Of a DNA stretch of 34,988 nt, positions 2,247 to 31,310 are shown piece by piece. Source of the DNA: a virus; IMG/VR virus record IMGVR_UViG_3300027734_000182, positions 1 through 34,988 of that record; one strand, given 5' to 3'. Both the position numbers and the translations under genes were made by a program. The notes under the pieces are model-generated. The model saw only the letters and a program-made list of their open reading frames with translations, was not told the origin of the DNA and ran no database searches. How positions within the stretch are numbered: the stretch's first letter is position 1; every line of letters starts with the position of its first letter.

Positions 2247-2468
2247 TCACACTAATTCAGGCCATATCAATTTGTAATTGTTTGGGAATAAATTTTTGCG
2301 TGTAATCAATCCGTGTGATTCTTTTTCTAGCGTTGCGGCCAAGATCACCAGCTTATCCATTGGTATCTCACCGTTCTGCCACATAGATACTGCTGGCACG
2401 GATACGCCTACCAGCTTTGCTATACGGGTAGGGCCACCAAGAAGTTTGATAATTGCTGTTGGATTCAT
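2247..2468 (-). CDS. YdaS/Cro-like helix-turn-helix regulator
   Basis: A 73-aa DNA-binding protein of the YdaS/Cro type. Residues 5-35 form the helix-turn-helix (IIKLLGGPTRIAKLVGVSVPAVSMWQNGEIP). The C-terminal stretch HGLITRKNLFPNNYKLIWPEL matches the family's 'G-x-(V/I)-T-R-x-x-L-x-P-x-x-Y/W...W-P-E-L' ending. It is transcribed alone, leftward, from a promoter whose -10 overlaps operator O2, and is followed by the long terminator. The predicted transcription start coincides with the ATG, so the mRNA should be leaderless; no ribosome site is visible. It is the only obvious regulator in the genome and is the natural candidate to bind the five TTAAGRTAGCTTAA operators. Whether it acts as Cro (lytic timing) or as a maintenance repressor cannot be read from sequence. 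Confidence 0.8.
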   Translation of the reverse strand: MNPTAIIKLLGGPTRIAKLVGVSVPAVSMWQNGEIPMDKLVILAATLEKESHGLITRKNLFPNNYKLIWPELV

Positions 2469-4789: not shown

Positions 4790-4818
4790 TTGCAATGTTA
4801 AGATAACTTAACTAAACT
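4790..4818 (+). promoter_or_regulatory. Second rightward early promoter with operator O4
   Basis: -35 TTGCAA (4790-4795), a 17-base spacer and -10 TAAACT (4813-4818). Operator O4, TTAAGATAACTTAA (4798-4811), is a 14-bp dyad with perfect 5-base arms inside the spacer. Serves the 4861-6168 genes. The -10 is the same hexamer as at the leftward promoter. Confidence 0.65.
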
Positions 4819-29430: not shown

Positions 29431-30774
29431 TTATATCCTGCGATTAACTATTTTGGGGGTTTCTTTCCACATCTCGTTGAGCGTTACATCCGTTTGCCCG
29501 ACATGAAGTCCTTTAATCCTTGAATCTTTGAGGATAGGGCTGTCCTCATCTTTCCAAACAACGCTGAGATAGCGGAACGCATCGGCAGAGTGGCTTGTAA
29601 AATCGTGTTTAGGGCGGTCATTAAAGCATTTTTTATCATCATTCCACTCTCTTTGATATTGACGCAAACATTCGATACCTTCTTCGCATCTATTATCAAA
29701 CCAAGCTCTAGTTAATGCAAGCCTTGTTGCTTGTATTCCATCCTGAATTGACAGGTTTGGAACAATTTTTAGGTGTTTTATGTCAATTTTTGTCGCAATT
29801 TGTTCAATTATGCTCTTACCGCCAGATGCTAAAGTTTTTGCCCGTGCATCGTGAGGCAGGTAATGGTAACCATATTTGTACCCAAACTCATATTCTTTTT
29901 GTGCTATTAAACCTGTGTAAAACGGTATTGCTTGGCCATTACTGGAATGATGGTCTAATACCCGTATCTCCCCGTACACCACCTGAAACCACCAAATGCT
30001 AGTGGAATCGTTAAACCCTAAGTCCCAAGCAGTATGACAAGGAAACATTGGGTCATAGTCAACGGTGGTAATGCGCTCAAGGTCGGTAAGCCTACGCATC
30101 TCCTGTCCATAGTACGCCCCAGTTATTGCCGCTTCAAATGAACATAGGAACTCAGCCTCGTATTGATTATCAGACATCATGCGCTGGGCATCTTCTAGCT
30201 CAGATTGTGGCAATAAGCCTGATTGATCTGCTCTTAAAGTTTTGGAGTACCAATCTGGATTGTTCTCAGCCCCCTTGTAAATGTCATAAAACCCGTTATG
30301 ACCTTTTGGCGTACCAATGAATGTAGCCCATCCACCTCTGTCTGCAAGGGCAGGGCGAATGATCTCACCCCACACACGGGGCTTCATATCAGCGTATTCG
30401 TCAAGCACAATTCCGTCAATATAATTGCCTCGGAGCGTGTCTGGAGCATCAGCGCCAAAAAGTCTAATCCTAGCCCCATTATGTAGTTGCACCCATAGTT
30501 CTGATTGGTTAGCTTTAGATAGCGCAGGTGCTGAAAATTTAAGCAAGTATTCCCATGCTACGGTTTTGGCCTGTGAGTATAGTGGGCAAAGGTAAAAATA
30601 CCTGCCATCAGGCTTGTTTTCTTTAATTGCCCTGCGGATTAGGTCATTGATAGAAGCTACGGTTTTACCTGCTCTACGGTGACAGACTAGAACTGCCCAG
30701 CGTTGTTTCCGTTTGTGGAAGTCTTTAAACGCATCTCTAGCCTTGTATTCAAACTCATGTACTACTTCAATCAT
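29431..30774 (-). CDS. terL: Terminase large subunit
   Basis: A 447-aa packaging motor. The ATPase part has Walker A CHRRAGKT (31-38), Walker B GIVLDEY with D125/E126, and the coupling motif FIGTPKG (152-158). The nuclease part has AWDLGFND with D251 and D256, LPHDARAK, and the final acidic site SHSADAFRYL near 400. It cuts and pumps DNA into the prohead through the portal. The ATG overlaps the small subunit by 8 bases. Confidence 0.93.
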   Translation of the reverse strand: MIEVVHEFEYKARDAFKDFHKRKQRWAVLVCHRRAGKTVASINDLIRRAIKENKPDGRYFYLCPLYSQAKTVAWEYLLKFSAPALSKANQSELWVQLHNGARIRLFGADAPDTLRGNYIDGIVLDEYADMKPRVWGEIIRPALADRGGWATFIGTPKGHNGFYDIYKGAENNPDWYSKTLRADQSGLLPQSELEDAQRMMSDNQYEAEFLCSFEAAITGAYYGQEMRRLTDLERITTVDYDPMFPCHTAWDLGFNDSTSIWWFQVVYGEIRVLDHHSSNGQAIPFYTGLIAQKEYEFGYKYGYHYLPHDARAKTLASGGKSIIEQIATKIDIKHLKIVPNLSIQDGIQATRLALTRAWFDNRCEEGIECLRQYQREWNDDKKCFNDRPKHDFTSHSADAFRYLSVVWKDEDSPILKDSRIKGLHVGQTDVTLNEMWKETPKIVNRRI

Positions 30775-31081
30775 CTTGCCATTTATAGATGTGGACTACT
30801 GGAGCAGTTTCATCGCCTACCATCTCAGTACGGGCTAATTTAGGTACATGGTATTCCATGACGCTTTGCAACATTCCAAATGCTTTTTCAGGATTAGGCA
30901 AAACAATGTATTTATCCTCATCGTTTTTAACGCCTTTAGCGACCTGCTCAAGCCATTCTTCCATCTTGTGAGCGTTACCATCAACAAAGCTGGCAATCGC
31001 TTCTCTGGCCATTGCTGTGGACTTGTTAGGGCTACCCTTGGGTCTACCTTTAGGATTATTTGTTTGTTGTTTATTGGGCAT
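30767..31081 (-). CDS. Terminase small subunit-like protein
   Basis: A 104-aa protein directly before the large terminase. The N-terminus is basic with the GRPKGSPNKSTAMAREAIAS motif common to phage small-terminase and DNA-binding heads. Helices follow (MEEWLEQVAKG, PEKAFGMLQSVMEYHVPKLA), and the end is short and acidic. It likely recognises the packaging site. It is the first gene of the late block behind the divergent promoter at 31097-31130. Confidence 0.75.
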   Translation of the reverse strand: MPNKQQTNNPKGRPKGSPNKSTAMAREAIASFVDGNAHKMEEWLEQVAKGVKNDEDKYIVLPNPEKAFGMLQSVMEYHVPKLARTEMVGDETAPVVHIYKWQDD

Positions 31082-31088
31082 ATCTTTA

Positions 31089-31130
31089 CCAAGTAGTTGT
31101 TAAGATAGGTTAATACTTGGTATAATTATA
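31089..31130. promoter_or_regulatory. Divergent late/accessory promoter pair with operator O5
   Basis: TATAATTATA (31121-31130) is a perfect 10-bp palindrome that gives a TATAAT -10 on both strands. Rightward: -35 TTGTTA (31097-31102), an 18-base spacer, and a TGG extended -10. Leftward: a weaker -35 (ATGTCA, about 31148-31153) serves the terminase genes. Operator O5, TTAAGATAGGTTAA (31100-31113), overlaps the rightward -35/spacer and lies just past the leftward start. It is flanked by CCAAGTA (31089-31095) and TACTTGG (31114-31120), an inverted repeat with which the leftward mRNA should begin. The rightward leader has TCAAA-gag-TTTGA (31138-31148). Confidence 0.6.
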
Positions 31131-31151
31131 TTACAAATCAAAGAGTTTGAC

Positions 31152-31310
31152 ATGCCAGAAATTAATTTAACCCGTGATGCTTTAGGAAACTTAAATTGCA
31201 ATTTAAATGATAAGGCTATTGATCTTAGTAATGATGATTATGTGGCGTTACTACAAGATGCCATACACGCATTACAGTCTGAGTTACTTACAGCAGAGTT
31301 ACAAGCCTAG
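31152..31310 (+). CDS. 52-aa plus-strand gene in the leftward block
   Basis: A small protein, MPEINLTRDALGNLNCN... to LLTAELQA: acidic, with a C-terminal helix (YVALLQDAIHALQSELLTAE). It lies just behind the strong extended -10 promoter at 31121-31126 with operator O5, and is convergent with the 425-aa gene, overlapping its end by 12 bases. No good ribosome site is visible; a small hairpin covers the leader. It could be a regulator, or a gene used at a different time from its neighbours. Function unknown. Confidence 0.55.
   Translation: MPEINLTRDALGNLNCNLNDKAIDLSNDDYVALLQDAIHALQSELLTAELQA

Follow-up and report, generated by a model that had tools for sequence, protein, structure and literature searches.

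A probable two-way promoter on a palindromic -10 element, with a P22-type operator, at the terminase genes of an uncultured phage

The locus and its genes

The window, meaning the whole stretch of DNA that was analyzed, covers 34,988 bases recorded from an uncultured dsDNA phage and carries large terminase, portal, and major head genes. The nearest isolated phages by the large terminase subunit (TerL) are Rhodoferax and Pelagibacter phages, with an identity of at most 43%. Genome contigs were scanned for close relatives of TerL to find a host; the matches were all distant (28-41% identity), and no host was found. Searches of the window for Rfam families and tRNAs found none.

The terminase genes are read leftward; upstream of them lie a short intergenic region and a small gene read rightward. 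The features of this locus are as follows:

29431-30774, minus strand: gene for TerL
30767-31081, minus strand: 104-aa gene, presumed small terminase subunit, named from its position before TerL
31087-31095, both strands: left arm of an inverted repeat, TACCAAGTA, overlapping the conserved ACTTG leader of the presumed small-terminase gene
31097-31102, plus strand: rightward -35, TTGTTA, with a spacer of 18 to the -10
31100-31113, both strands: operator O5, TTAAGATAGGTTAA, a P22-type core TTAAG-N4-CTTAA with one asymmetric base at position 10
31113-31118, minus strand: decayed ancestral leftward -10, AAGTAT
31114-31122, both strands: right arm of the inverted repeat, TACTTGGTA, overlapping the extended -10
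31118-31120, plus strand: extended -10, TGG (TGR in every relative)
31121-31130, both strands: palindrome TATAATTATA, made up of the rightward -10 (31121-31126) and the leftward -10 (31125-31130), with a 2-bp overlap
31148-31153, minus strand: weak leftward -35, ATGTCA, with a spacer of 17, variable among relatives
31152-31310, plus strand: 52-aa gene of no known family, the sole rightward gene amid a leftward block

The gene at 30767-31081 is presumed to encode the small terminase subunit because it lies just before TerL; family searches match only an unnamed PHROG. A scan found at least 80 related loci, which indicates that the gene is real. The 52-aa gene has a ribosome-binding site and a dN/dS of ~0.07-0.3, indicative of purifying selection. 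An earlier note on this DNA had placed leftward terminase genes and a rightward 52-aa gene on either side of the palindrome, and both genes are borne out. The 3' ends of the 52-aa gene and of a leftward 425-aa gene overlap by 12 bp (31299-31310). Close full-length relatives of the 425-aa gene occur in loci that have the two-way promoter.

The palindrome and the probable history of the leftward promoter

The palindrome TATAATTATA has a single match within the window, even when one mismatch is allowed. As the earlier note had it, the palindrome gives a perfect -10 to both strands, with consensus hexamers at 31121-31126 and 31130-31125, and the -10 elements of the two strands overlap. Promoters were scored with a sigma-70 weight matrix of generic base frequencies, and a separate consensus scan found both of them. 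The rightward site has the top sigma-70-like score in the window, both strands counted, and the leftward site is among the six best. Assuming that each start lies 7 bp from its -10, the predicted starts are an A at 31133 for the rightward RNA and an A at 31118 for the leftward RNA, 15 bp apart.

It is most improbable that the palindrome is a chance match and a promoter in neither direction. The intergenic DNA is AT-rich, which would favor such a match, but the exact TATAATTATA arose in only 0.19% of first-order Markov trials of the 70-bp gap and TAYAATTRTA in 0.58%, a chance probability of ~0.002-0.006. Moreover, the palindrome is conserved in all relatives with this arrangement, the promoter is top-scoring, and the gene downstream is under selection and has its ribosome-binding site.

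Loci with a rightward gene were found in three ways: by the 52-aa protein, by a DNA pattern that includes the rightward -10, and by a pattern of the leader and operator only. The latter two patterns return the same 39 loci, which largely share ancestry. These loci contain 17 distinct promoters. TAYAATTRTA is present in 17/17, so that both -10s read TAYAAT; the invariance spans TANAATTNTA, with variation confined to the third base of the hexamers. Conservation extends to a large part of the rightward 5' leader as well and is thus not unique to the leftward hexamer. Among leftward positions over ~240 bp, the palindrome is the best leftward site in all 17 distinct loci.

The wider family indicates what preceded this arrangement. 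In the 80 presumed small-terminase loci, upstream similarity is limited to a conserved block that runs as far as the start codon, TAgAATTAACyTATCTTAATCAACyACTTGGgtAAGgTATG. In 122 of 122 distinct sequences that lack the rightward gene, the operator is directly adjoined by a hexamer of the form TANAAT or TANACT. This hexamer is read as the -10 of the presumed small-terminase promoter, and its retention in every such relative implies that the terminase gene normally has its own promoter.

A one-way reading, in which only the rightward promoter is active, is unlikely. On this view, the leftward TATAAT would be incidental to the AT-rich DNA around the start, and polymerases would reach the terminase genes by read-through from leftward genes upstream. 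The leftward -35 is weak and variable, and poor in several relatives (scores down to -1.5), which counts against a two-way promoter, and the conservation of the whole rightward leader also suits the one-way reading. In addition, the block from 34879 to 31299 runs leftward, and no leftward terminator was found before the terminase gene. Against this stand the 122 relatives that keep a promoter -10 exactly here and the leftward hexamer TAYAAT of the palindrome in 17/17.

At rightward-gene loci, the older leftward -10 reads AANNAT, and the palindrome lies 12 bp upstream of it. In a second, quite unlikely alternative, the leftward promoter is still the ancestral one (TTGATT at 31141-31136, spacer 17, AAGTAT at 31118-31113, start inside O5). 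The palindrome would then serve the rightward gene only, and the two directions would have separate divergent promoters. The position equals that of the promoter in the 122 relatives, locus L006 still reads AATAAT, and a TTGTTT-like -35 sits 17 bp upstream in most relatives. However, the mean leftward score of the older site is 2.7, versus 9.7 for the palindrome; 560 leftward positions in the window score at least as high as the older site, and the fourth base of its hexamer is now free to vary.

All rightward-gene loci also lack one base of the TTGATTAAG of the other relatives, which brings TTGTTA to an 18-bp and not a 19-bp spacing. The leader and operator pattern was itself built on the TTGTTA/18-bp form, and the unbiased support for this difference comes from the loci retrieved with the protein (11/11) and from the two loci of the 80 that have the rightward gene. 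Most likely, the two-way promoter arose through insertion of a small-gene cassette, together with a move of the terminase promoter. The promoter serves three unrelated small genes, which encode proteins of 52 aa, 61 aa (MTPTVNV...), and 62 aa (MRKILIR...). In locus L251, the 61-aa gene is found without the usual leader, with an upstream operator-like TTAAGCTAGGTTAA in a promoter spacer. This is consistent with the 61-aa gene belonging to the operator-controlled set wherever it is placed.

Operator O5 and its predicted regulator

O5 belongs to a family of TTAAG-N4-CTTAA sites, several of which are near early promoters. The other members in the window and the putative regulator are as follows:

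1798-1811, both strands: operator TTAAGGTAGCTTAA, symmetric, 10/10
2247-2468, minus strand: gene for a 73-aa P22-Cro-like regulator, presumed to bind O5
2468-2481, both strands: operator TTCAGCTATCTTAA, 9/10 with one mismatch, at the start of the regulator gene
2524-2537, both strands: operator TTAAGGTAGCTTAA, symmetric, 10/10, in the early rightward promoter region
4798-4811, both strands: operator TTAAGATAACTTAA, symmetric, 10/10, lying in a rightward-promoter spacer (TTGCAA-17-TAAACT, read by eye)

O5 is one mismatch (9/10) from the symmetric operators at 1798, 2524, and 4798. The operator core is present in 14/14 related records searched for the pattern. The regulator matches the P22_Cro family (Pfam PF14549, 33.4 bits versus a cut-off of 30.2) and aligns to P22 Cro across the helix-turn-helix. 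It is 79-96% identical in 9 of 18 related records searched, many of which are fragments, and operators and P22-Cro-like genes co-occur in relatives. The Cro-like protein is presumed to be the binder and repressor at O5.

The Cro-like gene appears to have TTGCAA-17-TAAGAT (2468-2503, by eye) as its promoter, with the -10 inside the gene's own operator, which would give a nearly leaderless mRNA; L100, L102, and L104 look alike here, also by eye. A non-coding stretch at 2118-2232, between this gene and the leftward early genes, is conserved, with homologs in L099 and L105, and has the look of a structured RNA. By eye, GGGCTTTAGGGGTAG pairs with TTACCTCTAAAACCC in a long outer stem; there is also an inner stem, and CTTGAAC / GTTCAAG make a pseudoknot-like pair, both sides of which are changed in L105 (TAGAAC / GTTCTA). 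An Rfam search with this stretch returned no match.

Given the predicted starts, O5 spans -33 to -20 of the rightward promoter, that is, its spacer, and +6 to +19 of the leftward RNA. This agrees with the earlier note, which had O5 covering the rightward spacer and the start of the leftward RNA. Several other operators, such as that at 4798, are likewise held in rightward-promoter spacers. The earlier note also proposed that one bound dimer could close both directions or tip the choice between them. By its predicted position, the single O5 is placed to block both, and a simultaneous block is the simpler prediction.

The 7-bp inverted repeat that the earlier note drew around O5 is present, but it measures 9 bp and is not conserved. 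A 9-bp inverted repeat of this kind appears in 1.2% of Markov trials. Across 17 relatives, pairing averages 6.1 of 9, the level seen with shuffled partners, with no covariation, and the repeat was rejected as a functional element. The likeliest account is that two elements, each conserved in its own right, happen to pair: the extended -10 and the ACTTG of the terminase leader.

Among 135 distinct operators at the terminase promoter, position 10 is always G or A (135/135), and the symmetric C occurs in 0/135. Away from the terminase promoter, this position is C in 33/45 sites. An operator one base off symmetric suggests a weaker binding site. Two-way loci show the same asymmetry even though their leftward start appears to have moved, and for this reason a weaker site is favored over constraint from the old promoter. 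A tentative and rather doubtful extension is that the lower strength of the terminase operator, relative to the early operators, is deliberately maintained, with packaging starting only once replicating genomes titrate the early repressor. If true, in the two-way version the same weak site would tie the small early-type gene to that titration threshold.

In a second group of relatives (e.g., L055 and L058), the spacing between the terminase -10 and the start codon is roughly unchanged. Their terminase promoters are without the TTAAG operator core, and their regulator is just 51% identical, which suggests a changed operator specificity. A matching new operator was sought at these terminase promoters, and no clear one was found.

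A probable two-way promoter and its relation to known systems

The site is probably a genuine two-way promoter, with divergent polymerases on overlapping -10s of one palindrome. In the rightward direction, a strong extended -10 promoter would drive a small early-type gene. Leftward, the -10 of the palindrome would take the place of the promoter that the presumed small-terminase gene had before. At O5, a P22-Cro-like dimer would occupy the DNA separating the rightward -35 from its -10 as well as the initial ~20 bases of the leftward transcript; since it covers both, it should block transcription in both directions. Competition between polymerases at the palindrome, as anticipated in the earlier note, is possible.

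Bacterial bidirectional promoters with a symmetric shared -10 are already known (Warman, Grainger and colleagues; PMC12825309, PMC10268837), and the class is defined by divergent starts 7-25 bp apart (PMC10268837). The phage site is like them in its near-symmetric -10, its overlapping divergent polymerase sites, and starts that are predicted to fall within 7-25 bp; the predicted separation is 15 bp, whereas 18 is the commonest in bacterial bidirectional promoters. The tested E. coli bidirectional promoters are weak and are controlled by an activator. In contrast, both -10s of the phage site are at consensus, and control would be by a predicted phage repressor. At the bidirectional promoters tested in E. 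coli, basal activity brought no competition between polymerases, which appeared only upon strong activation of one direction (PMC12825309); the phage promoter is closer to consensus than these.

The OR and OL regions of P22, with the c2 and Cro operators, have the same core TTAAG-N4-CTTAA (OL1, TTAAGACTTCTTAA; OR3, TTAAGTCATCTTAA) and likewise combine a Cro-family regulator with operators in promoter spacers. Unlike P22, one operator here is also found at the terminase (presumed late) promoter, far from the regulator gene. The two promoters here share a -10, and no separate prophage repressor was identified. A literature search for phage examples of a shared -10 beside terminase genes gave no match.

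The palindrome promoter is probably a further instance of the known bidirectional type with a symmetric -10, conserved across dozens of uncultured phages. It would provide a natural, conserved example from phage, combining two near-consensus -10s with a single predicted repressor site, at which mutual exclusion of polymerases is directly testable. The related loci also record a probable route of origin, in which a small gene was inserted and the older -10 shifted by 12 bp. Together with O5, the site points to an early-type repressor that may control DNA packaging in a widespread group of uncultured phages.
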